Positions 8,068-48,445 of a stretch of 64,000 nucleotides of DNA are shown here, piece by piece. The stretch is taken from assembly GCA_031269775.1 (NCBI GenBank), contig JAISYQ010000027.1, forward strand, positions 1 to 64,000, given 5' to 3'. Origin of the DNA: Streptococcaceae bacterium. Lineage in GTDB: Bacteria > Bacillota > Bacilli > Lactobacillales > Streptococcaceae. Position numbers and translations under genes: made by a program. Below the pieces are notes generated by a model. The model worked only from the letters and a program-made list of their open reading frames with translations. It ran no database searches and had not been told where the DNA came from. How positions within the stretch are numbered: position 1 is the stretch's first letter; each line of letters begins with the position of its first letter.

Positions 8068-8070
8068 ATT

Positions 8071-8230
8071 AGACCTCCTCGGAAATTAGGGTATAAAAAG
8101 AATTCGTTTCAATTTTTTCCTGAGACAAGGAAAAAAACGTAAAAATAGTTGTTCTATTTTGAGGCTTTTTGACGATGTATCGGGGAAAAAGAAAACAAAA
8201 TTCTAATACATCTAGTTTTCGAGAAGATCT
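8071..8230. repeat. Repeat B copy 1 (160-bp inverted-repeat element)
   Basis: Starts AGACCTCCTCGGAAA and ends with the imperfect reverse complement TTTTCGAGAAGATCT. It is flanked by ATT on both sides (8068-8070 and 8231-8233). It matches the elements at 40704-40863 and 47984-48143 but lies in the opposite orientation. No coding sequence is visible, so it is a MITE-like element. It sits directly behind the rpmA terminator. Confidence 0.8.
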
Positions 8231-9727: not shown

Positions 9728-10273
9728 TCATTTTTTCGTTTTTTTAAAAGTCCAAATCCATAGGGAAAAAATTAGCAATTTCAACAGATCTGCAGCATAA
9801 AACGGAACTATCCCAAGCGTATATGCTCTTGAGAAACCAACAAAATATGCAAGTTGTAAATATCCCCATACAAATGTGATTAATATGCCTACCAAACCTG
9901 CTAAAAAGATTGCTCCAAAGCTCCTATTATGGTATCTATGTAAAAGCGTACCGGAAAAATACACTGCAGGGACAAATCCTAGTAAATATCCTCCAGTTGG
10001 ACTTAATATCCTCCAAATACCGGAGGAAAATCCCGCAAAAACTGGCAGTCCCATTATTCCTTCCAGCAAGTAAAGCAAAACGGCAATAGTCCCTCCTTTC
10101 GAGCCCAGCATGGAAACAACAAATAAAACAGCCATTGTTTGCAATGTTAATGGAATCGGCACGAACGGAATCGATATTTGGGCTCCCAGAGCAATGGCAA
10201 ACGAACCACATAAACATTGCAGCAACCTCTGCACACCTAAAACTTGACGCTTTACAGATTGTTTAAACAACAT
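9728..10273 (-). CDS. bioY: BioY-family biotin transporter substrate-binding subunit
   Basis: S component of the ECF-type biotin transporter, an integral membrane protein of 181 aa with about six helices. Seen: the conserved QISIPFVPIPLTLQTMAVL block, LLEGIMGLPVFAGFSSG, GGYLLGF and VWGYLQL, all diagnostic of BioY. It works with a shared ECF energizing module that is not in this window. It is monocistronic, so the cell probably takes up biotin. The upstream region is AT-rich with no clear BirA operator. Confidence 0.93.
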   Translation of the reverse strand: MLFKQSVKRQVLGVQRLLQCLCGSFAIALGAQISIPFVPIPLTLQTMAVLFVVSMLGSKGGTIAVLLYLLEGIMGLPVFAGFSSGIWRILSPTGGYLLGFVPAVYFSGTLLHRYHNRSFGAIFLAGLVGILITFVWGYLQLAYFVGFSRAYTLGIVPFYAADLLKLLIFSLWIWTFKKTKK

Positions 10274-10419
10274 CTCTTTACTTCACTTCTCTTTCACGAA
10301 AAAATAAAACCGACTTTTCAATATCAACTACAAATAAATTGTATCCCAATTTAAAATTCTAACAATTCTTTTTTTCACAAGTATGCTCATTTAATCAATA
10401 ATTGGGGCTGACATATTTT

Positions 10420-11340
10420 TTATCTACTACTCATCACCGCTTCTAAAATAGCCATCCTTGCATAAACACCATTTTTCATCTGCTCTACAATTTTTGATTT
10501 TGGAGATTCAACTAAAACACTTGCAATTTCCACATCACGATTAATCGGAGCTGGATGCATAATAATAGCTCGTTTTTGCAAACGCTTTGCTCGCTCTTTA
10601 GTTAACCCATACAATTTATGATACTCTTCCTTAGAAAAATTTTGCTGATTATTATGACGCTCATGCTGCACTCTTAACATCATCAATACATCTACTTTAT
10701 CGATCAAATCATCCAATGGTAAAAATTGACCGTAATGATCGAATTCCTCATTGTGCCATTCTTTTGGTCCAGAGAAAATAATCTTTGCTCCAAACCTTGT
10801 TAACATCTGCATATTACTGCGTGCTACACGCGAATGTATTAAATCACCAACAATTGCCACTCTCAGATCAGAAAATGCTCCAAATTCCTCTTGAATCGTC
10901 ATTAAATCTAGTAAACACTGTGAAGGATGCCCTCCACTGCCATCACCACCATTAACCACATGGCAATCAATTATAGGAGCATTGATCAAATTTTCCCAAT
11001 AACGTTTTACATTTGATCTGATCACTACTACATTGACTCCTAAAGCAGATAAAGTTACTAGCGTATCATACAAAGTTTCTCCTTTTTGCAACGAACTCGT
11101 CTTTACATCAAGCTCTAGCACATCCATTCCTAATTTACGCTGTGCAATATAAAAACTATTATGCGTGCGCGTGCTATTCTCAAAAAAGAGATTTGCAGCA
11201 AAAATTTGCTTTTTAGGAGAGTCCCATAACCATGAATCTTTTTGCTTAAAAGCAGATGCTCGCTTTAACAGCAGCAAAATTTGCTCATTGGTCAAATCTT
11301 CCACACTAACAAAATGATCAATTTTGGCAATCAATGTCAT
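10420..11340 (-). CDS. pyrB: Aspartate carbamoyltransferase catalytic subunit
   Basis: First committed step of pyrimidine synthesis: carbamoyl phosphate plus aspartate gives N-carbamoylaspartate. Seen: the carbamoyl-phosphate motif [36 protein letters not shown], and the C-terminal [13 protein letters not shown]. At 306 aa it is the normal length. The start is set at 11340 because GAGGAG lies 8 bases upstream; the five-residue longer form has its ATG inside that site. It stands alone, without the rest of a pyr operon or a clear PyrR attenuator. Confidence 0.94.
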
Positions 11341-11451
11341 TTTTAAACTCCTCATTCAATGATTTTTATGGTAAAATCAAATTCAAAATAACTCCAAAAA
11401 TTGTATTCATTTTCTAGTTTTTAAAAGGTATGCATTAAATCTATTTTTTAA

Positions 11452-15322: not shown

Positions 15323-17983
15323 ATGCATGAAAGAAAAAAGAGAATGAAATTATTAACATCGGCAAAAATTCGGCAAATGTTTCTTGATTTTTTTAAATCA
15401 AAAGGACACACAATTGAACCATCTGCTTCGCTGATTCCAATCAATGACTCAACTCTTTTATGGATTAATTCCGGAGTAGCTACTTTAAAAAAATACTTTG
15501 ATGGTTCTGTCGTTCCTGAAAATCCTCGAATTGCTAGCGTTCAAAAATCAATCCGAACCAATGATATTGAAAATGTTGGAAAAACAGCACGTCATCATAC
15601 GATGTTTGAAATGCTAGGGAATTTTTCTATTGGCGATTATTTTAAAGAAGAAGCTATTAGCTGGGCATGGGAATTTTTAACTTCAGCTGATTGGATTGGT
15701 TTGGATCCTGAAAAATTATACATAACTGTCTATCCCAAGGATAAAGAAACTCGTCGAATTTGGGAAAAAGTCATTGGCCTTTCTAATAAGCATGTCATTG
15801 ATGCTGAAGATAATTTTTGGGATATTGGCGCAGGTCCATCAGGTCCTGATTCTGAAATTTTTTATGATCGCGGAGTTAAATATATAGACATTCCTAAAAA
15901 TCATTCTGAAAATTATCCTGGTGGGGAAAATGAGCGTTATTTAGAAATTTGGAATTTAGTTTTTTCGCAATTTAACCATCTTCCAAATACTGATACGTTT
16001 GAAGAGTTACCTCATAAAAACATTGATACAGGTATGGGGCTAGAGCGAATAGTTTCTATTATTCAAGAAACAAAAACCAATTTTGAAACGGACCTTTTTT
16101 TACCAATCATTCGTGAAATAGAAAAAATTTCAGGAAAAGTCTACGAACCAAAAAATTCAACTAAAAATATAAGTTTTAAGGTTATTGCTGATCATATTCG
16201 TGCTTTAAGTTTTGCCATTGGAGACACAGCTTTACCTGGTAATGAAGGACGCAGCTACGTCTTACGCAGACTTTTGCGCCGAGCGGCAATGCATGGAAAC
16301 CGCTTAGAGATTAAGCAAGCTTTTCTTTATAAATTGGTTCCAGTTGTGGGCGAAATTATGAAAAGTTATTATCCTGAAATATTAGAAAAATGTGTATTTA
16401 TTCAAAAAATCATTCAGCGTGAAGAAGAAACATTTAATCGAACAATTGATACAGGAGCTACTTTATTGCAACAAATGTTAGCTAATCTTAAAGACAGTCA
16501 ACAAAAACAAATTTCTGGAAAAGATATCTTTAAATTATATGATACTTATGGTTTTCCTGTAGAATTAACCGAAGAATTGGCACAAGAAGAAGGATTTGAA
16601 GTTGACCGTGAAGGTTTTAAAATGGCGATGAAAGAACAACAAAATCGAGCACGCGCAAACGTAATCAAAGGAACTTCTATGAATGTTCAATCTAAATTGC
16701 TAACACAAATTAAAGATCCTTCACAATTTAGTTACACTGAACAATCAATGAATGCCAAACTTTTATATCTTATTGCAAATAATCAAACACATAAGTTGTT
16801 AAGTTTCGGCAAAGCTGAACTGATTTTTGATCAAACACCATTTTATGCAGAAAGTGGCGGACAAGTGGCGGATTATGGAGTTATTAAAGACTTAGCAGGA
16901 GAAGTCATTGCTAAAATTATTGATGTCCAAAAAGCGCCCAATGGGCAGCATTTACACCAAGTAAAAATTTTAGGAGAGCTATTAGTAGGAGCTAGCTATC
17001 ATCTTGAAATTGATATTATTCGTCGCTATAAAATCATGAAAAATCACACATCTGCTCATTTGCTGCATGCGGCTCTTCATAATATTTTAGGAAATCACAC
17101 TGTGCAAGCAGGTTCTTTGAATGATGCTGATTTTTTACGTTTTGATTTTACCCATTTTACGCAAGTAAAAACAGAAGAGCTAGCTGCAATTGAAAAGCAA
17201 GTAAATGAAAAAATTTGGGAAGCAATACCTTCTGAAACCATTAAAACAAATATTGATACAGCCAAAAAAATGGGCGCTACTGCTTTATTTGGTGAAAAAT
17301 ATGGCAAAAACGTTCGAGTCTTGCAGATTGGGGACTATTCTGTTGAACTTTGTGGCGGCACCCATGTAAAAAACACAGCTGATATTGGTATTTTTAAGAT
17401 TTTAAAAGAAGAAGGAATCGGATCTGGCATACGTCGAATTATCGCTGTAACTTCACAAGCAGCTTATCATGCCTATCGCGAGGAAGAAAATGTATTACAT
17501 AAAATAACACGACAAGTCAAAGCTCCTCAACTCAAAGAAATACCTGAAAAAGTAGCTGTCCTTCAAAAACAACTGCGTGCATTGCAAAAAGAAAATGAGC
17601 ATCTCACCACCAAACTTGCTAATCAACAAGCAAATGACGTATTCAAAAATATCCAAAGAGCAAACAACGAAATAACTTATATTGCAGCTAAAGTAAATGT
17701 TAAAAATATGGGGCAATTACGCATTCTTTCTGATCAATGGAAACAGCAGAACCTATCTGATGTTTTAGTTTTAGCAACTGTTAATAAAAGAAAAGTTTCT
17801 TTGTTAGTTGCTATGAAGCCAAAAGCTTTGGAGCGTGGCTTAAAAGCAGGTGAATTAATTAAAAAATTAGTGCCAATCATTGGTGGCGGAGGCGGTGGTC
17901 AAGATCATCTTGCTCAAGCAGGCGGATCAATGCCTGAAAAAATTGATACGATGCTTCAAGCTGTAGCTAAATACCTTTTTTAA
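15323..17983 (+). CDS. alaS: Alanyl-tRNA synthetase
   Basis: Charges tRNA-Ala. The 886-aa protein has the class II catalytic core ([33 protein letters not shown]), the editing domain zinc motif HTSAHLLHA with CGGTHV, and the C-terminal oligomerisation domain ending in [16 protein letters not shown]. Two in-frame ATG starts are possible (15323 and seven codons later); both have AG-rich upstream sequence. Its 3' end marks the left edge of a mobile-element-rich island, and a diverged copy of the last about 22 codons is found again at 34336-34401. Confidence 0.97.
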
Positions 17984-17990
17984 AATGTTA

Positions 17991-18164
17991 GAACCTGTTA
18001 ACTTGTCTCCGTAATTACGACTTTTCTGGAAATTTTTTGCACTTCGCAGGCAGAAAACTTATACTTCGTTTTTTTATCCATTACCTAAAAGCTTATGTTT
18101 TTTGCCTCAAATTGCTTAAAAATTAGCTCAAAAATTTACTTCACTTGAGATCGTTAACAGGTTC
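17991..18164. repeat. Repeat A copy (174 bp), MITE-like
   Basis: Begins GAACCTGTTAAC and ends GTTAACAGGTTC, perfect 12-base inverted ends. The left flank is TTA and the right flank TAA, so the flanks do not match; recombination with another copy is likely. It begins 7 bases after the alaS stop codon. Confidence 0.75.
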
Positions 18165-18460
18165 TAAGGTTGAGAGAGGCGAGAAAATCACAACCCAAAC
18201 TCGCTATTTTTTAACATCGCCTACAGAAGTTAAGGATTTTGCGAAGAGTGTCCGCAAACATTGGTCAATTGAAAATCAGCTGCATTGGGTACTCAATGTT
18301 TCTTATTAGAGAAAATTCTTGTGGAGCAAAAAAGGATAATTCTCCTCTTAACTTAAATATTTTGAAAAAAATTGCCATGCCGCTGCTTAAAAGGACTGAT
18401 TTTGGAAGAATGGGCATCAGAAAAAAAATGTTTAAAGCTGCTTTAAACCCAAACAGATTT
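18165..18460 (+). pseudogene. ISAs1-family transposase C-terminal fragment
   Basis: Reads ERGEKITTQTRYFLTS, then KSVRKHWSIENQLHWVLNV, then after frame changes LNILKKIAMPLLKRTD and a lysine-rich end. The HWSIENQLHWVLNV block is a hallmark of ISAs1 transposases. The sequence differs clearly from the ISAs1 copy at 27617-28772, so it comes from another member. It is truncated on both sides by repeat A copies. Confidence 0.7.
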
Positions 18461-18463
18461 TTA

Positions 18464-18786
18464 GAACCTGTTAACTTTTCTCCAGAATTGCGCAATTTTG
18501 TTTAATTTTTAGCACTTTTTTGTCAAAAATCCTCGAAATAGCACCACTATTTTTGCGTTTTTTTCCGCAAATTGCTTAAAAATTAACCAAAAATTTCATC
18601 AATTTAGAGATTATTTTAAAAAAGTAATCATTGATTTGGGCCGGGAAGTAGCATGGTAATTGAAATTTTTGCTTTTGGAGCAAAATTTTGTTGTGTATAG
18701 AGAAAAATAAGTAGCAAGGATTAAGGATGTGCGAAACAATCAGAAAATAATGCTGTCGGCCTGCATAGCGAGATCGTTAACAGGCT
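18464..18786. repeat. Composite repeat A copy
   Basis: Starts GAACCTGTTAAC after TTA and ends with ATCGTTAACAGGCTT at 18786. The first about 150 bases match repeat A. The rest (about 18620-18780) is unrelated non-coding sequence, so this is either a copy with an insertion or two partial copies joined. No gene seen inside. Confidence 0.5.
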
Positions 18787-19385
18787 TTTAGAAACGAGAG
18801 AATATTTTTTAGAAACAAATATCGATTGGTTACATGAAAAAGAAGGGTGGAAAAATCTTAACGGAATAGGCATGGTTCGTTCCACAATTCTCAAGAAAAG
18901 AATAGAGAAGCAGGAAGTTCGCTATTTTTTGACTTCACTGCTAGATGTAAAAAAATTTGCTAAGTCAGATCAGAGAACACTGGGTAATAGAGAACAATTT
19001 ACATTTGGTTTTGGATGTAGCTTTTAGAGAAGACTACATTAAAACTAATAAGGGAAACAGTGCTGAAAATTTTGCTGTTATAAGAACCTGTTAACGCTCT
19101 CTCTATTGATGAATTTTTTGAGAAATTTTTGTGCATTTCTAGGAAAAAAACGCAGGTTTAGCGGTGCTAAATCGAGGATTTTTGACGAAGAAAGGCAAAA
19201 AATTGCCAGAAAAGTCACAATTACGGAGGATCGTTAACAGGCTCTAAGACATATTGCTTTAAATTTAATAAGAAGAGATACTTCTAAAATGAGTGTGAGA
19301 GGTAAAAGGCATAGGTGTGCTTACGATGATGAATTTTTGTATAAGATCTTGTTTGAGGGTTTTTAATTTTCATGCGTCAGCCCTG
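18787..19385 (+). pseudogene. ISAs1-family transposase, 5'-truncated and interrupted by repeat A
   Basis: Nearly identical to the 3' part of the intact ISAs1 copy at 27617-28772: TREYFLETNIDWLH, NLNGIGMVRSTILKKRIEKQ, then after a frameshift near 18965 the block ending in ENFAVI. A repeat A element (19084-19244) splits the gene at this point, and the frame resumes as RHIALNLIRRDTSKMSV. The right terminal repeat ATTTTCATGCGTCAGCCCTG is kept at 19366-19385. The N-terminal half is missing. Confidence 0.85.
19084..19244. repeat. Repeat A copy (161 bp) inserted in an ISAs1 transposase, with TAA target duplication
   Basis: Ends are GAACCTGTTAAC and GTTAACAGGCTC. TAA occurs on both sides (19081-19083 and 19245-19247). 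The intact ISAs1 gene has a single such site at the matching place, which proves the element moved as a unit and duplicated 3 bp. Confidence 0.9.
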
Positions 19386-19534
19386 CTTAGATCTGTCCTA
19401 AAAACTAGAGCAAATCTAATGTTAGGTTCTCATAAAAAGCTGCTTTAGTTGCCAAAATATATGGAATAACCCAAAACGATGCTAAGCCAAAAGTAATCAC
19501 AATCAATATATACCAGGGAAGAAAGCTGATATAG

Positions 19535-24214: not shown

Positions 24215-25889
24215 TTGAATAGATTACTATTTCAACAAAAATGGAAGATATTTTTATTCACAATTTTATTGATCTTTTCGGGAGCACTCGAAGTTTCTTT
24301 TGCATACATCATTCAAATTTTTATTGATTCCCTTACTGGAAAGAATGTACAAATTTTTTTGTGGTCTATCTTTGGTTTTATCGCTTTTTTAATAACTAAT
24401 CTCTTATTGCACTGTTTTGCGGTTATAACTGAGGCCAATCTTTCAAAAAATTTGCATATTGCTTTAAAAAACAAGCTCGTGCAGACTATTTTATTACAGG
24501 ATTTAACAAAATTTCGAAGAACTAGTTCTGGGGAAAAACTTAATTTATTTGAAAATGATTTATCAGTTATTGAGCAGTCTTATTTTAAAAATATTTTTAC
24601 CATTTTAAAAGATCTTTTATTGTTCATATTTGCTTTCACTTTCCTCTTCTCAACAAATTGGATAATGACTTTAATCATTGTTTTTTTATCCATCTTGTCT
24701 TTTATTATTCCTGCAAAATTAAGTGATAAAATTGATGAATTAGTAGAAAAATATTCCCAAAAAAATGGAGACTTTTTGGAACAACTCAAAAATATTTTTG
24801 ATGGAATATTCGTTATCAAGTCGTTTGCAATTGAAAAAGTTATGTATAAAATTACAAATTCAAAATTATTCGCACTAGAAAATTCTTTATATAAACTAAA
24901 AATAAAAACGGGTTTTTGGAATCAAATTATGGCAACTTTTCAATATTTGGTAATTAGTATTTGTTTTTTGCTAGGAGGAAAAATGATTTTTTTCTGGTGA
25001 GATGACCTTGGGGGAGCTTATGGGAATTACTCAATTATTGAATCTCATCATTCAACCCATAAACGCTATAGCTACTGCCTTTATTGAAATTTTAGGAACA
25101 AAATCCATTAGAGAAAAAATTGAAAAATATCTAAATATCCCTGAAAAAAAACTTATAAAAGAGGAAATTGAAAATATTTCTTCATTTAAAAGCATTGCTA
25201 TCAAGCAAGTCAACTATGTGACGAATTCTCAGGATCATATTTTAAAAAATATTGATTTTATAATCGAAAAAGGGAAAAAGTATGCTATTGTTGGCCCCAG
25301 TGGTAGCGGAAAATCAACTTTGTTGAACAGCATTTCCCAATTAATTTCTCCAACTTCTGGAGAAATTTTAGTAGATGGTCATTTAAAAAATTTACGAAAA
25401 AATATTTCTTACATTAACCAAGATCCATTTCTTTTCAAGGATAGTATTATCAACAATATCACTTTATATCAGAATTATTCTTCTGAAGAGATCAATCGTG
25501 CTTTGGAATTTTCTGATCTTTCTAGTCGATTGAATCCAAAAGATTTGGAAGAGTTATGTTTGGAGAACGGAGCAAATTTTTCTGGTGGAGAAAAACAGCG
25601 AATTGCAATTGCCAGAGCCTACTTAAGCAATCGTCCAATTATGCTTTTAGATGAATTTACTTCAGCTATTGATAGTGAGCTGGGGCAGAGAATCGAAAAA
25701 AGAATTTTGAAATTAAAGAATAAAACATTGATATTTGTTACCCATAAATTGCATAAGAATTTTTTACTAACAATGAATGAGATCTTTTTTATGGAGCAAG
25801 GAAAAATCATCGAAAAGGGAAAATTTAAAGATTTATATCGAAAAAATGGGAGATTTTATGAGCACTTTCTTAAATTTTTTGTTTCTTAA
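24215..25889 (+). pseudogene. ABC exporter (membrane plus ATPase domains), frameshifted
   Basis: N-terminal part (TTG 24215, placed by GGAGGTG upstream) is a six-helix ABC membrane domain of about 260 aa. After a frame change at about 24995 the C-terminal part continues with LMGITQLLNLIIQPINA and a full ATPase: Walker A GPSGSGKST, signature NFSGGEKQRIAIA, Walker B IMLLDEFTSAID. Each half is intact, so a single slip separates them. It lacks a C39 peptidase domain. In this cluster it would export the modified peptide. The ATPase half alone could still be made from internal starts. Confidence 0.82.
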
Positions 25890-40636: not shown

Positions 40637-40699
40637 TAAAGCCTGTTTAATATTTTTGGTAAAACAAATTCTCTACCAAAGAATTTAAGCAGGCTTTTA
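40637..40699 (+). terminator. Terminator of the LysM gene
   Basis: TAAAGCCTG-TTTAA pairs with TTAAGCAGGCTTT, with an inner TTGGTA/TACCAA stem, and is followed by T residues. It starts about 25 bases after the stop. Confidence 0.75.
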
Positions 40700-40703
40700 T
40701 ATT

Positions 40704-40863
40704 AGACCTCCTCGGAAACTAAATGTATGAGAATTTCGTTTTCTTTTTCCCTGATACATCGTCAAAAAGCCTCGAAATAAAACACGTATCTTTAAGTTTT
40801 TTTCCTTGTATCAAGAAAAAATTGAAACGAATTCTCCTTATACCCTAATTTCCGAGGAGGTCT
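40704..40863. repeat. Repeat B copy 2 (160 bp)
   Basis: AGACCTCCTCGGAAA at the left and TTTCCGAGGAGGTCT at the right, a perfect 15-base inverted repeat. ATT flanks it at 40701-40703 and 40864-40866. Non-coding inside. The right end supplies a GAGGAGG sequence on the plus strand 40 bases before cmk, but the spacing is too long to serve as its ribosome binding site. Confidence 0.88.
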
Positions 40864-40905
40864 ATTAAAAAAGTTAATCAGCTATATTGGGGAAGGTTAA
40901 ATGAA

Positions 40906-43033: not shown

Positions 43034-43978
43034 GTGCAAGAGGCCGTACGAGTAAATTTACAAGATTTTCTGCTTCAACAAGAAAACGAAATTGTCAAAA
43101 TGAATCAGCAATTTAAAAATTTTGGTTTAAAAATTGAAATTGATAAAAATCGCAAACAAAAAACAAAAATCACTTTATTTTATTTTTCTATTCATCAAGA
43201 TAAAAATTGTATCGGCTTTGTATACGGTCTCTACTTAAATAAAGAAGATTATTTATTAATTAAAAAAATATTTTTATTAAAACAATTTAGAAACACATAT
43301 AATATTCAATGGATTATGCAAAATTTTTTACAATTAGCAAAACAAAAGTGTAATATTTCTAAGTGTAAATGGGATTATATAATTTCTGAAGGATTAAAAG
43401 ATGCTTATTTTTATTTGTTAAAAAATATTCCTGGAATAAAAGTGAAAAAGAAAATGTCACTAAAAAGGTATACTTCAAAAACAAGTGATTTTGATCATCT
43501 AAGAAAATTACTTTGGTATCGGCCTTCTTTATTTCAAAAAAGAGGATATAAAGCAATCCTTTGGCGTGATTGCCCAGAAAATGTTAAACAAAAAATTTTA
43601 GATAAGGAAAAAATATTAAAGAAAGATCCGATATATCTCTCACCATTTATTAAAAATTTTGAAATAGAAGATACAGAAACAAGTTTTATTTTAGTTAAAC
43701 AAAAAACTTACGATCCATTTGGTTGGATGATTAGTGAAAAAGTGTCGAAAAATACAGCAAAAATTAGAAGATGGTACACTTATAAGAATACGCGAAATCT
43801 TCGAATAGCTCCATCATTTGCATCATTTATTTTAGAGAAAATAGCTAAAAGAAGTAAATACTTAATTTTTGATGTATCCATTGACAACTTATCAATGGAT
43901 AAAATAGTAATTAAGCGTTATTTTCATCCAATTTTAATGAATATTTCTGATGTTTGTCAGTTAGAAATAGCTATATAG
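43034..43978 (+). CDS. GNAT-like protein in the proteusin-like locus
   Basis: A 314-aa protein. The first half shows the GNAT pattern IGFVYGLYLNKEDYLLIKKIF followed by the FRNTYNIQWIMQNFLQLAK helix. The second half has a similar layout (DPFGWMISEKV, IRRWYTYKNTRNLRIAPSFA), so it may be a tandem GNAT. The acetyl-CoA loop (Q/R-x-x-G-x-G/A) is degenerate, so activity is uncertain. It lies 31 bases before the first precursor gene and is co-directional with the locus. A role in acylating the peptide or in self-resistance is a guess. The GTG start lacks a strong ribosome binding site. Confidence 0.5.
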   Translation: MQEAVRVNLQDFLLQQENEIVKMNQQFKNFGLKIEIDKNRKQKTKITLFYFSIHQDKNCIGFVYGLYLNKEDYLLIKKIFLLKQFRNTYNIQWIMQNFLQLAKQKCNISKCKWDYIISEGLKDAYFYLLKNIPGIKVKKKMSLKRYTSKTSDFDHLRKLLWYRPSLFQKRGYKAILWRDCPENVKQKILDKEKILKKDPIYLSPFIKNFEIEDTETSFILVKQKTYDPFGWMISEKVSKNTAKIRRWYTYKNTRNLRIAPSFASFILEKIAKRSKYLIFDVSIDNLSMDKIVIKRYFHPILMNISDVCQLEIAI

Positions 43979-44009
43979 TGAGTAAAAGCATCTAAGTAAG
44001 GAGAGGCTT

Positions 44010-44357
44010 ATGGAATTCTCAGAAGAAAAAATGAATGAAATTTATGCACGTGTCATGCAAAAAGCAACGACAGATAAAGAATTTCGTCAAGATCTAATGA
44101 AGGATGTAAATAAAACGATCGAAAAATTAATTGGTGAAAAACTTCCAGAAGGAACGAACTTAAAAGTTATTGAAAGTGATCCTAATTATAATGCCACTTT
44201 TGTTTTACCTAATTTATCAACTAGTGAAATGGATTTAGATGTTTTAGATAATGTAGCAGGCGGAGTTTCTGGGCTTATAATTATTAGTGTTTGTGCTGTA
44301 GCTATTGGAGATGGTGGAGGAACCATTTGTGGAGCCGATATGGGTACAGGAAAATAA
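44010..44357 (+). CDS. NHLP-leader RiPP precursor 1
   Basis: A 115-aa precursor. The leader (1-85) is a nitrile-hydratase-like peptide: MNEIYARVMQKATTDKEFRQ, IEKLIGEKLPEG, NATFVLPNLS, and LDVLDNVAGG, the last two Gly being the cleavage site. The 30-aa core begins VSGLIIISVCAVAIGDGGG and ends TICGADMGTGK. The CGAD.G block recurs in the other cores. AAGGAGAGG precedes the ATG. Such leaders guide modification enzymes in proteusins; the enzymes lie directly downstream. No exporter with a C39 peptidase is seen at this locus. Confidence 0.9.
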   Translation: MEFSEEKMNEIYARVMQKATTDKEFRQDLMKDVNKTIEKLIGEKLPEGTNLKVIESDPNYNATFVLPNLSTSEMDLDVLDNVAGGVSGLIIISVCAVAIGDGGGTICGADMGTGK

Positions 44358-44445
44358 GATTTTGTTTACTTTTATGAAAGCGTTTGAATGAAAAATATCC
44401 ATGATCTTTATTAAATTCTAAATAAAATAGAAGGAATGTTTACAT

Positions 44446-45768
44446 ATGAAATGGTCACGATATAGTAAATTATTTAAATCCCAAAAAAATGGATGGCTAC
44501 TTTATAATTCAGCATCTAATGCATTTTTAACGCTTGAGGAAAAAGCAGTGTCTGTAATTCAAGAAATCATAAAATCTCCCAAAACTTATGATTTTAGCAA
44601 TGCGGTTAATTTATATTTTCAGCTAAGAATAAGTGGTTTTTTAGTGGAAGATACTAAAGATAATGATTTATTTAATATTCTTAAAATGCGTCGTTTATTA
44701 GTTGGCTATGCAACTGATACTTTAACTTTAACGATTGCTCCTACGAGAAAATGTAATTTTGCCTGCCCTTACTGTTATGAAACAAATCGTACCAAATCGA
44801 TGATGAATGACGAAACTATAGAGAATTTATTAAAATTTATAAAAATGCATAAACAAGCGCGCAGAGTTTTTTTTGTTTGGTATGGAGGAGAGCCATTACT
44901 TGCTTATAAGAAAATAAAACAAATTAATGCAAAGATTGAGGAATTAAAAATACCGTATTCAGCAAAAATGATTACTAATGGATATTGCTTAACATCTGAA
45001 ATTTGTGAGGAATTAAATGATCTACATATTTCAGATATTCAAATTACAATTGATGGTGATCGAAAAACGCATAACAGTAGACGTTTTCTAATTGGTGGAG
45101 GTAAAACTTTTGATCGAATTATAAATAATATTGACACTTTATTAAGGTCAAACTATAAAGGAATACTACATTTACGTGTTAATATCGATACGAGAAATAG
45201 TAAGCAGTTTGCCAATGTTTATCGTTTTATTCAGAGCAAATACGATGATGAAACTTTAAAACGCATTTATATCTACCCTGGTTTTGTTCATGGAAAAGAA
45301 ACAACCCCTGATATAGCTTGTTTCTTTGATTATGTAAAAAAAGGAGAATTTATCGCCAAATTAGCAAAAGAAGAAAAGATAAGCCCTTTACCGATTTTTC
45401 CTCAATCAAAATACACTGCTTGTACCTTAGTACAGCATAATTCTTATGTAGTAGGTCCAGATGGAGAACTTTATAAGTGTTGGCATGATGTTGGAGAAAA
45501 GGATAAGGTTATTGGAAATATTGCATTTAAAAACTGGAATATGGCTCTTATAGCAGAAGGTATGATCTCAGGAAACTATTTAGAAGATAAAAAGTGTGAA
45601 AAGTGTTTCTTTTTTCCTGTTTGTGATGGTGGTTGTCCAAAATTAAGAATGCTTAATAATCGCGATAAAAAAAGACGAGATCATTGTTCTTATTTTAAAA
45701 ATAATCTTGAAGAGTTATTGGAGATTTACTATGAACAAAAGCGTGATAAATCAACCGTCAAATCTTAA
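44446..45768 (+). CDS. Radical SAM-SPASM peptide maturase
   Basis: A 440-aa enzyme. Cys103, Cys107 and Cys110 (CNFACPYC) bind the radical SAM cluster. VWYGGEPLL is the SAM-binding GGE motif. The C-terminal SPASM domain has CTLVQHNSYVVGPDGELYKC and then CEKCFFFPVCDGGCPKLR, for extra Fe-S clusters. The N-terminal 90 residues look like a RiPP recognition element. It belongs with peptide maturases that form cross-links or thioethers; the reaction here cannot be told. It overlaps the next gene by 38 bases. Confidence 0.9.
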   Translation: MKWSRYSKLFKSQKNGWLLYNSASNAFLTLEEKAVSVIQEIIKSPKTYDFSNAVNLYFQLRISGFLVEDTKDNDLFNILKMRRLLVGYATDTLTLTIAPTRKCNFACPYCYETNRTKSMMNDETIENLLKFIKMHKQARRVFFVWYGGEPLLAYKKIKQINAKIEELKIPYSAKMITNGYCLTSEICEELNDLHISDIQITIDGDRKTHNSRRFLIGGGKTFDRIINNIDTLLRSNYKGILHLRVNIDTRNSKQFANVYRFIQSKYDDETLKRIYIYPGFVHGKETTPDIACFFDYVKKGEFIAKLAKEEKISPLPIFPQSKYTACTLVQHNSYVVGPDGELYKCWHDVGEKDKVIGNIAFKNWNMALIAEGMISGNYLEDKKCEKCFFFPVCDGGCPKLRMLNNRDKKRRDHCSYFKNNLEELLEIYYEQKRDKSTVKS

Positions 45769-47116
45769 TAAGAAAAAATTGAATTGGATTGATTTTAAAC
45801 GTCTAATTGAATTGATTAGCGTTGATTTGAAAAATTATAAATTATTTGAAAAAAATCCAGAAAAATTTTTAGTGGAATTTGCTCTAAATTTAGAGCCTTA
45901 CTCAGCAAAAGAAGCAGTAGATATTTATTTAAAAAAGAAAAAGGCGGTTGACAATCCTTATATTATGCAAGCTTATAAAATTATTCAGCCAATTTATGAT
46001 GATCTTTTTAAGCGAGTAGATATTTCAAATTTTACATTTCTCAAGTTTCAAAAATGGATCCAGCGTAAGAAAAAAGCTCTTGCTTGGGAGAGCAAAGAAG
46101 CTAGAAAAATATTATCTCATTTTAATGCTCCGGTAATGTTTGAATTAAACCAAGGATGTAGCAGTCAATGTGATTTTTGTTGTTTAAATACCCATCCGTT
46201 AACAAAGATTTATCCTTATACAAAGGAGAATAAAAAATTTTGGTTAGAAATATTAAAAATTACAAAAGAGGAAATCGGTAATGCTGCTAGTGTTGGCGCT
46301 TGTTATTTTGCAACAGAGCCACTAGATAATTTCGACTATGAAAAATTTATCGCTGATTTTTATCAAGTGTTTTATACTTTTCCACAAACAACAACAGTTA
46401 AAGGCGCAACAAATATTAAACGTATCAAACAATTAATGAATCAATTAGGTCTAGAAGAGTTGCAAAAAGCAAAATTGCGTTTTTCTATTGTGTCACAAGA
46501 GCAGTTAAAATTAATTTATCAAAATTATACAAAAAAGGAATTAGCTTATGTGGAACTCTTAATGAATAATAAAGAATCCATCCATCCTTATAGTGATTCT
46601 GGCCGAGCAAGAAATATTCATAAAAAAAGAGGAAAAAAGAATTTTGAAGCCGCACCTTCGGTTTGCTTAATAGGTTTTTTGGTTAATTTATGCAGTAAAA
46701 CAATTTCCTTGATCACTCCCAGAAAACCAAGTAATAATTATCCATTAGGAATGGAAATAATATCTTCAAAAAAATTTTTAACTCCTAAAGAGTATCGCCA
46801 TATTATACGAAAAACAATTAATATTTTTATGCCTTTTAAAATAAATAAAAATCATAAATTGCGTTTTCATTCAGGAATTTCTATACAATCTAAAGGAAAT
46901 ATAGTTACTTTTTTAGGAGAAAACATTAAACGATCGCTGTCTTTAAGTGCAGAATCTCAAACAGTGCTTAAAAAATTGCAAAAAGAGGTATGTTTAATTA
47001 AAAATATCTTTAAAGAAAAAAAATATTCAAACTTTTTACGCAAGAGTATTTTAAATAGATTACAACATTTATATGATTTAGGCTTTTTAGAAATTTTAGA
47101 AAGAGAGGAATATTAA
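45731..47116 (+). CDS. PoyD-type radical SAM RiPP epimerase
   Basis: A 461-aa enzyme. ATG 45731 has GGAG 8 bases upstream, so it starts inside the SPASM gene. Cys143, Cys147 and Cys150 (FELNQGCSSQCDFC) bind the cluster. The blocks YPYTKENKKFWLEIL, CYFATEPLDNFDYEKFI, FYTFPQTTTVKGA and LAYVELLMNNKES are those of the PoyD family (radical SAM RiPP maturation amino acid epimerase, TIGR04517 from memory). This family turns L residues into D residues in proteusin cores, as in polytheonamide. It has no SPASM domain, as expected for PoyD. The assignment is by motif recall. Confidence 0.82.
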   Translation: MNKSVINQPSNLNKKKLNWIDFKRLIELISVDLKNYKLFEKNPEKFLVEFALNLEPYSAKEAVDIYLKKKKAVDNPYIMQAYKIIQPIYDDLFKRVDISNFTFLKFQKWIQRKKKALAWESKEARKILSHFNAPVMFELNQGCSSQCDFCCLNTHPLTKIYPYTKENKKFWLEILKITKEEIGNAASVGACYFATEPLDNFDYEKFIADFYQVFYTFPQTTTVKGATNIKRIKQLMNQLGLEELQKAKLRFSIVSQEQLKLIYQNYTKKELAYVELLMNNKESIHPYSDSGRARNIHKKRGKKNFEAAPSVCLIGFLVNLCSKTISLITPRKPSNNYPLGMEIISSKKFLTPKEYRHIIRKTINIFMPFKINKNHKLRFHSGISIQSKGNIVTFLGENIKRSLSLSAESQTVLKKLQKEVCLIKNIFKEKKYSNFLRKSILNRLQHLYDLGFLEILEREEY

Positions 47117-47118
47117 AA

Positions 47119-47439
47119 ATGTCTTGGTCACAGGAAGAAATAAATGAAGTATATGAAAAAGCAATGCAAAAGGCAACAACAGATGAAGAGTTTCGCCAAG
47201 AATTATTAGATGATCCTAAATTGGCGATTGAAAAATTGACAGAAAAATCTTTACCTGATGATTATACGATAAAAGTTGTAGAAGATGTGGATCCAAATTA
47301 CACTGACCCCAATTACGCTGCAACATTTGTTTTACCTTCTTCTTCAGCAAAAGAACTTAATTTTAATGATTTAAACAATGTAGCCGGAGGAAATATTAAC
47401 GTTTGTGGCGCACAAGCAGGAAGTGTTACTAAAGAATGA
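47119..47439 (+). CDS. NHLP-leader RiPP precursor 2
   Basis: A 106-aa precursor with a 91-aa leader (INEVYEKAMQKATTDEEFRQ; IEKLTEKSLPDDY; AATFVLPSS; LNNVAGG) and a very short 15-aa core, NINVCGAQAGSVTKE. The core keeps the CG-x-x-x-G block of the other cores. The leader carries a small extra repeat, VDPNYTDPNY. It starts 3 bases after the epimerase gene; AGAGAGGAA lies upstream of the ATG. Confidence 0.9.
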   Translation: MSWSQEEINEVYEKAMQKATTDEEFRQELLDDPKLAIEKLTEKSLPDDYTIKVVEDVDPNYTDPNYAATFVLPSSSAKELNFNDLNNVAGGNINVCGAQAGSVTKE

Positions 47440-47620
47440 AGAATTTTTTTCTTAATTTGATCATTTACAACAAAATACACCTAGATATTTATAAGCAATT
47501 TTAATTTAGCGCTCAAAAATATATAGAAGAATTGATTAGTGAGTTATATTTTTTAATAAATAAATGGGAATAAGATTGACTAATACCAATTTTAAATATA
47601 AAAATTAGGAGGAATATATT

Positions 47621-47968
47621 ATGTCATGGACACAAGAAACAATCAATGAGGTTTACGCAAAGGTAATGCAAAAAGCAACAACGGATGAGGAATTTCGGGA
47701 GGAGTTATTAAATAATCCAAATAAAACTATTGAAAAACTTACCGGTGAAAAACTTCCTGATGATTTTAAAGTAAAGATACTGGAAAACGATCCAAATTAT
47801 ACCGCAACATTTGTTTTACCGAATATGCGTAGTACTGATCTAAACATTGATGATTTGGAAAATGTAGCTGGAGGTTTTGGTGGATGTACTGCTGAATTTG
47901 GAGAGATTGGTGATGTCAATGTCAATGCATGCGGTAATCAAGTAGGAGGAAACCAAACTAAACAATGA
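47621..47968 (+). CDS. NHLP-leader RiPP precursor 3
   Basis: A 115-aa precursor. The leader is 85 aa (INEVYAKVMQKATTDEEFRE; IEKLTGEKLPDDF; TATFVLPNM; LENVAGG). The 30-aa core starts FGGCTAEFGEIGDVNV and ends NACGNQVGGNQTKQ. It has two Cys, as core 1 does. AGGAGGAATAT precedes the ATG. It stands 180 bases after precursor 2, so it may have its own promoter. Confidence 0.9.
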   Translation: MSWTQETINEVYAKVMQKATTDEEFREELLNNPNKTIEKLTGEKLPDDFKVKILENDPNYTATFVLPNMRSTDLNIDDLENVAGGFGGCTAEFGEIGDVNVNACGNQVGGNQTKQ

Positions 47969-47983
47969 AAATTTTTATTTATT

Positions 47984-48143
47984 ATACCTCCTTGAAAACT
48001 AGATGTATTGGAACTTCGTTTTCTTTTTCCCCAATACATCGTCAAAAATCCTCAAAATAGAACCACTATTTTTACGTTTTTTTCCTTGCCTCAGGAAAAA
48101 ATTGAAACTAATTTTCTTTATACCCTAATTTCCGAGGAGGTCT
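47984..48143. repeat. Repeat B copy 3 (160 bp)
   Basis: Left end ATACCTCCTTGAAAA, right end TTTCCGAGGAGGTCT. ATT flanks both sides (47981-47983 and 48144-48146). Same orientation as copy 2. It separates precursor 3 from the decayed fourth precursor. Confidence 0.85.
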
Positions 48144-48182
48144 ATTGGCCATAAATCCAAAAAATGATTGTTTAAATACAAG

Positions 48183-48445
48183 ATGTTTTTTTCATTTGAA
48201 GAATTTCATCAAAAATTATTAAGGGCTCTAAATTTGCAATTGAAAAATTAAATAGAAGAGGCGTTACTGGATGATTATAAGATTAAAATTTTAGAAAATA
48301 TCCCAATTTATACCGCGACATTTATTTTACCAAATATGTTATACATAGTGCTGAGTTAAATCTTGATGATTTAGAAAATGTCGCTGAAGGAACTGAACTT
48401 CAAGGTTCCCTAAGAGTATATGCCCAAAATCAAACTGGAAAATAA
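48183..48445 (+). pseudogene. Decayed fourth NHLP precursor
   Basis: Three frames together give a precursor: EEFHQKLL, then KFAIEKLN, then LLDDYKIKILENIPIYTATF with ILPNM, then LNLDDLENVAEG followed by TELQGSLRVYAQNQTGK. The GG cleavage site has become EG, and the core lacks the Cys-Gly block of the other three. Frameshifts and the lost start (replaced by repeat B next to it) show it is not functional. Confidence 0.8.

Follow-up and report, generated by a model that had tools for sequence, protein, structure and literature searches.

Within the 64,000-nt stretch analysed here, which we call the window (contig JAISYQ010000027.1 of a Streptococcaceae bacterium), the gene cluster at 43034-48445 is probably a proteusin-type operon for ribosomally synthesized and post-translationally modified peptides (RiPPs). 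Judged from sequence, its precursors with nitrile-hydratase-like (NHLP) leaders would receive D-residues from a PoyD-family radical S-adenosylmethionine (SAM) enzyme and thioethers from a SPASM radical SAM maturase, the leader being cut by the C39 domain of an NHLM exporter and the peptide exported. The enzyme families are already known; what is unusual is their combination, unseen in the rest of the family, together with several short cores and a Streptococcaceae host.

Operon and precursors across the genus

The cluster lies between rpsA and lexA as a compact operon on one strand, in which the gene for a 314-aa protein is followed by an NHLP precursor, the SPASM gene, the PoyD-like gene, two further NHLP precursors and a frameshifted fourth one. 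A sequence-only reading of this stretch had placed precursors, SPASM and PoyD-family genes in one locus of a low-GC, lactic-acid-type bacterium, and they do form a single tight operon, in a member of the Streptococcaceae. Spacings across the operon are 31, 88, -38, 2 and 181 bp; the best start of the PoyD-like gene is the ATG at 45731, preceded by TTGGAGATTTACT, and a plausible ribosome-binding site was found at most genes. Promoter and terminator scans of the locus were uninformative, with counts equal to or below those of shuffles; Rfam gave no match and a tRNA scan added nothing.

The same gene order was found in all five known species of one Streptococcaceae genus with 1.2-Mb genomes (the source genome, G000, and the sister species G001 to G004), adjoining rpsA in G000, G001 and G002; the other Bacilli sampled did not have the locus. 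Pairwise ratios of non-synonymous to synonymous substitution (dN/dS) lie near those of rpsA (0.11-0.22): the SPASM gene gave 0.07-0.13, the PoyD-like gene 0.11-0.22, the gene of the 314-aa protein 0.13-0.25 and precursor I 0.13-0.29. Since the gene order repeats in five genomes and every gene is under purifying selection, the locus is not a product of chance, and on these comparisons it is judged to be functional and not decaying.

All three intact precursors exceeded the curated cut-off of the NHLP leader model TIGR03793 (50.9 bits), and their coordinates, leader ends and core lengths agree with the earlier description of NHLP leaders ending in NVAGG before cores of 15-30 aa; each thus combines the NHLP leader and the GG-type site that mark a proteusin precursor. 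We then compared 18 precursors from the five genomes, cut after V[AV]GG. Their leaders are nearly identical (84-91 aa, nitrile-hydratase-like) and their cores are short, either glycine-/cysteine-rich or hydrophobic. Cysteine is absent from 1545 leader residues and makes up 31 of 414 core residues, with at least one in 18/18 cores (Fisher p=5e-22, a value that overstates independence, the precursors being related); on this count, cysteine is what the SPASM enzyme would most obviously act on.

The type I core is hydrophobic (VSGLIIISVCAVAI..., in G004 LSVAVVISVCAVAVQVK) and is kept through the genus, its precursor being syntenic in 5/5 species; type II is short and NVCGAQAGSVTKG-like, with precursor orthologues in G001 and G003; type III is glycine-rich, often with CYG[DE] and CGNQ, and its paralogues are expanded in G001 and G004. 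Grand average of hydropathy values range from +1.1 to +2.2 in type I and are mostly around zero or below in types II and III. The decayed fourth precursor was detected by tblastn with precursor III, of which residues 23-69 aligned at 55% (E=1e-15) in a frame that contains a stop, and residues 69-85 in a different frame.

Modification enzymes and export

The second radical SAM protein had been read from the sequence as PoyD-type, and its match to TIGR04517 (rSAM_PoyD, curated cut-off 325 bits) extends from end to end (profile 4-446 of 446, E=3e-92). The comparison with the cut-off itself was mixed: the window protein stayed below it, at 309.9 bits, while four sister-species orthologues, 54-77% identical, scored 333.5, 325.1, 327.3 and 328.1 bits, at or over it. 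A better match to an unrelated radical SAM family, named beforehand as the result that would tell against the assignment, did not appear, as the protein was matched by none of the remaining radical SAM families in NCBIfam. In an alignment of 15 homologues, including those of Kovacikia, Nostoc, rhizobia and two Bacillota genomes, 39 positions are invariant, among them C143/C147/C150 and Cys312, the sole non-cluster cysteine conserved in 15/15. In PoyD the role of hydrogen donor has been proposed for a single conserved cysteine, Cys372, and the C372A variant lost epimerisation in vivo (PMC8326336). Cys312 is taken as the likely counterpart of Cys372, being the sole shared non-cluster cysteine in an alignment that has PoyD outside it. 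Because the orthologues reach the cut-off and this protein retains both the CxxxCxxC motif and the cysteine conserved in the family, the assignment holds, and the protein is, by these sequence features, a divergent PoyD-family member.

We considered the loss of a PoyD 'SPC' cysteine, an R here, and set it aside; the same position is V in rhizobial members, so this cysteine is not the conserved one. A PDB sequence search gave no relative of the protein, and its AlphaFold2 model, built from five sequences, was poor (predicted local distance difference test, pLDDT, 51).

The identification of the first radical SAM enzyme as a SPASM maturase was borne out: it scored 59.3 bits against the TIGR04085 SPASM domain (cut-off 27), and the radical SAM CX3CX2C (CNFACPYC), CX9-15GX4C, CX2CX5CX3C and last C are all present, cysteines 326, 345, 384, 387, 393, 397 and 414 being invariant in five species. 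Its nearest models are TIGR04334 (Clo7bot, 211 bits), TIGR04463 (195 bits) and NF038107 (CefB, 193 bits), which by their names would mature Cys-containing peptides.

For the 314-aa protein there was no sequence match in Pfam, NCBIfam or PDB, nor was it found in the other Bacillota sampled. A low-confidence AlphaFold2 model (pLDDT 56) has two halves of GNAT-type b-b-b-a-b-a-b order, and Foldseek with this model gave the tandem GNATs 3tt2 and 2wpw/2wpx as best matches (E about 1e-4). Because the model is tandem-GNAT-like and GNAT genes also lie beside PoyD genes in Aminobacter and Mesorhizobium, our best guess, held with modest confidence, is that the protein is an acyltransferase. Homology to those GNATs is weak: with the one in the Aminobacter PoyD cluster, a suggestive single-sequence alignment (E 0.006, probability 6%) faded when a larger profile was used (E 0.35), so that the claim is limited to a probable fold.

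The sequence-only reading had found no exporter or C39 peptidase, which is true of the window, the 43034-48445 stretch having no exporter gene, but not of the genome: a complete NHLM exporter is encoded on contig C9 of G000, with TIGR03796 (ABC1 with C39 peptidase) at 979 bits against a cut-off of 853, TIGR03797 (ABC2) at 779 against 709 and TIGR03794 (HlyD) at 175 against 156. It had concluded that release must depend on another gene; no unknown gene is needed for export or leader removal, as a full NHLM system is in the genome and adjoins the same operon in G004. There the exporter directly follows the NHLP operon, the only case of physical linkage; G001 and G003 have a matching exporter on other contigs, and G002 an ABC2 fragment at a contig edge. 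We infer that the NHLP precursors of G000 use the C9 exporter, whose neighbours are a STAS anti-sigma antagonist, a protein with an LPG-synthase C-terminal domain (PF09924), a 984-aa membrane protein containing a major facilitator superfamily (MFS) domain and two Nif11-like peptides.

Two further observations concern NHLM clusters. Membrane proteins of ~950-1000 aa occur in the exporter clusters of G000 (C9, 984-3938) and of the Bacillota genome G772 (16685-19492 of its locus), near STAS/sensor-type proteins; their N-terminal parts look similar, and the C-terminal part is MFS in G000 and guanylate cyclase in G772, so that this protein looks like a recurrent regulatory partner of such clusters. 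On contig C58 of G001 (9824-11353), a ~474-aa protein with a weak Nif11-like leader ending in IVGG (TIGR03798 E=0.007) suggests that large proteins, too, may leave through the NHLM exporter.

Table 1. Features of the operon and their positions in the window
Feature	Position	Strand	Remarks
Probable tandem GNAT-fold acyltransferase, 314 aa, first gene of the operon	43034..43978	+	kept in 5/5 species; predicted fold
Type I NHLP precursor	44010..44357	+	85-aa leader ending DNVAGG; core VSGLIIISVCAVAIGDGGGTICGADMGTGK, 30 aa; TIGR03793 59 bits
SPASM radical SAM maturase	44446..45768	+	CNFACPYC, seven SPASM cysteines; TIGR04085 59.3 bits
PoyD-family radical SAM protein, predicted peptide epimerase	45731..47116	+	TIGR04517 309.9 bits; CxxxCxxC at 143/147/150, Cys312
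Type II NHLP precursor	47119..47439	+	91-aa leader ending NNVAGG; core NINVCGAQAGSVTKE, 15 aa; TIGR03793 57.8 bits
Type III NHLP precursor	47621..47968	+	85-aa leader ending ENVAGG; core FGGCTAEFGEIGDVNVNACGNQVGGNQTKQ, 30 aa; TIGR03793 71.8 bits
Decayed fourth NHLP precursor	48198..48391	+	frameshift and internal stop; tblastn

Proposed pathway and competing explanations

In the pathway that we propose, the ribosome would make several precursors with shared-type leaders and short cores. The SPASM enzyme would, most likely, form thioethers, linking every cysteine of a core to a carbon close by, either in the backbone or in a side chain. The PoyD-family enzyme would take the alpha-hydrogen from chosen core residues, and its conserved cysteine would return one on the other face, giving the D-residues expected from family membership and the retained catalytic residues. 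The tandem GNAT-like protein might acylate the precursor or perhaps give self-protection; the C39 domain of the NHLM exporter would then cut after Gly-Gly and the peptide would be exported, its probable targets being competitors among the gut bacteria; its role would be antibacterial or one in signalling.

The plp cluster pairs the epimerase PlpD with the SPASM enzyme PlpX. The related SPASM enzyme PapB tolerates D-residues at its thioether site (PMC9413430); given this precedent and this tolerance, a doubly modified product, as the sequence-only reading had suggested, is plausible and chemically reasonable. The stronger proposal, that D-residues and SPASM thioether rings are both installed in a single NHLP-leader core, which would make a new RiPP subclass with the type I core becoming a short D/L membrane-active mini-polytheonamide of insect-gut streptococcal relatives, we consider unlikely.

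Several results weigh against the proposed pathway. The PoyD-like protein lies 15 bits under the TIGR04517 cut-off and shares just 22-26% identity with the members of its family from other genera. The SPASM enzyme is far under every equivalog cut-off (600 bits in the case of TIGR04334), so that it is filed in none of the nearest families, Clo7bot included, and its chemistry is not fixed by them. The cores are diverse, with no obvious thioether acceptor residues; the precursors that neighbour the C9 exporter are of Nif11 type, which leaves its use for NHLP precursors to inference; and the five genomes are without exception draft or metagenome assemblies.

Of the competing explanations, the one that fares best is a division of labour, in which the PoyD-like enzyme would act mainly on the hydrophobic type I core and the SPASM enzyme on the cysteine/glycine-rich types II and III, with no doubly modified product. 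Every complete locus has two physically distinct core classes, and the V/I/A/S runs of type I resemble known epimerase substrates; however, the leader is common to all classes, cysteine occurs in all of them, type I included, and the 38-bp overlap between the two enzyme genes suggests coupled expression, and we regard this arrangement as possible though doubtful.

The SPASM enzyme might instead form no thioether; it might, for example, excise tyramine at CYG in the manner of the splicease PlpX, or make a cross-link of the C-C or C-O type. Several type III-like cores carry C-Y-G-[DE]. PlpXY acts at XYG (PMC10533398), and PlpD is an epimerase of the PoyD family (PMC8326336). PlpD and PlpX belong to one cluster, that of another proteusin-type pathway. 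On the other hand, types I, II and several other cores are without tyrosine while every core and no leader has cysteine, the nearest models belong to Cys-containing peptides, and no separate PlpY-like partner gene was seen in the locus, all of which makes such a reaction unlikely.

Another reaction for the PoyD-like protein, which would then share only ancestry with PoyD, seems rather improbable: the low identity outside the genus, a long branch holding this genus alone (100/100 support) and two extra invariant cysteines, Cys151 and Cys321, confined to it in the 15-homologue alignment would fit this, but not the 39 invariant positions with Cys312, the orthologue scores or the absence of any other NCBIfam match. 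That the locus is a decaying remnant of a reduced genome, as the fourth precursor, a pseudogene, and the genome of just 1.2 Mb might suggest, is very improbable, given six other intact genes in G000, dN/dS of 0.07-0.29 across the genus and the expanded precursors of G001 and G004.

Known systems, distribution and minor observations

Proteusin clusters with a PoyD-family epimerase (poy for polytheonamide, osp for landornamide, Pleurocapsa plp, and avp) likewise have an NHLP leader, a GG-type site and an epimerase with a conserved cysteine. Unlike them, the present locus has several short cores, a Clo7bot-like SPASM enzyme, a probable tandem GNAT and a Streptococcaceae host; its operon is without B12 radical SAM methyltransferase, LanM, arginase and PlpY, and in G000 the exporter is unlinked. 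Rhizobial and Bacillota PoyD clusters (plasmids of Rhizobium/Sinorhizobium/Mesorhizobium; G772) share the epimerase, some with an adjoining GNAT and G772 with NHLM exporter genes nearby, but in most of them the precursors are of Nif11 type and come with a RiPP radical SAM C-methyltransferase, and in the stretches that were read the epimerase has no SPASM maturase next to it. With the Clo7bot/CefB/PapB-type maturases of ranthipeptides and related peptides, the SPASM enzyme shares full-length TIGR04334 similarity (profile 1-439 of 440), Cys-containing cores and the SPASM motif, whereas its scores are far under the equivalog cut-offs (211 against 600) and its precursors have NHLP leaders. Radical SAM epimerisation of a secreted peptide is also known in Firmicutes, streptococci included, from the epipeptides (EpeX/EpeE, YydFG); EpeE shows no significant homology to the epimerases of proteusins and has two clusters, and the epipeptide precursor has a short leader (PMC8326336).

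The locus would place a PoyD-type epimerase in the streptococcal family, with very few genes and a number of natural short cores, which would make it convenient for testing how one leader serves both an epimerase and a SPASM maturase. PoyD-type epimerases are known above all from cyanobacteria and from uncultured symbionts of sponges. The claim that a low-GC Firmicute is a new setting stands as far as PoyD is rare in Bacilli, since among 400 Bacilli genomes there was no full-length PoyD match except in the source genome, and is otherwise overstated: NHLP leaders are common (44/350 Bacilli genomes), and 399 Bacillota included two other genomes in which a full-length PoyD protein scored above the cut-off, with precursors of Nif11 type adjoining. 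In G772 the PoyD gene has around it not only such precursors but also a large radical SAM-like gene and genes of an NHLM-type exporter, identities that were read from sequence and in part tested with hidden Markov models. BAGEL4 'proteusin' clusters have also been reported in Paenibacillus (PMC10931772). NHLP leaders occurred in no other genus of Streptococcaceae among those sampled, and an initial genome-contig scan, a viral-contig scan and phages gave no relatives. The host probably comes from an insect/termite-type gut, as judged, unconfirmed, from the names of sister metagenome-assembled genomes (Cc175, Cd354, Gsp477, Roe453); if the products are membrane-active, they would offer a chemical basis for competition in termite-type gut communities.

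Other NHLP-type genes were seen in G003. A second, different system on its contig C73 (403-2007) has two NHLP-like peptides, of which the second has hardly any core behind its leader, and then a SPASM enzyme whose nearest model is TIGR04103 (252 bits); on contig C63 (4654-4971), an orphan NHLP-type precursor (48.3 bits) with a VAGG end and a hydrophobic core stands beside a truB-like gene.

An interspersed repeat of ~170 nt occurs in the window at 47975-48146, where it sits between precursor III and the decayed precursor, at 40695-40866 and also at 8070-8226. It has terminal ACCTCC/GGAGGT and strong predicted stem-loops, with 52 matches in the 1.2-Mb genome, many copies in three sister species and 3 in the fourth; copies vary in the middle of the element, somewhat like pneumococcal BOX elements. 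Elsewhere in the window, an ABC transporter ATPase-like pseudogene with six internal stops lies at 24861-25862.

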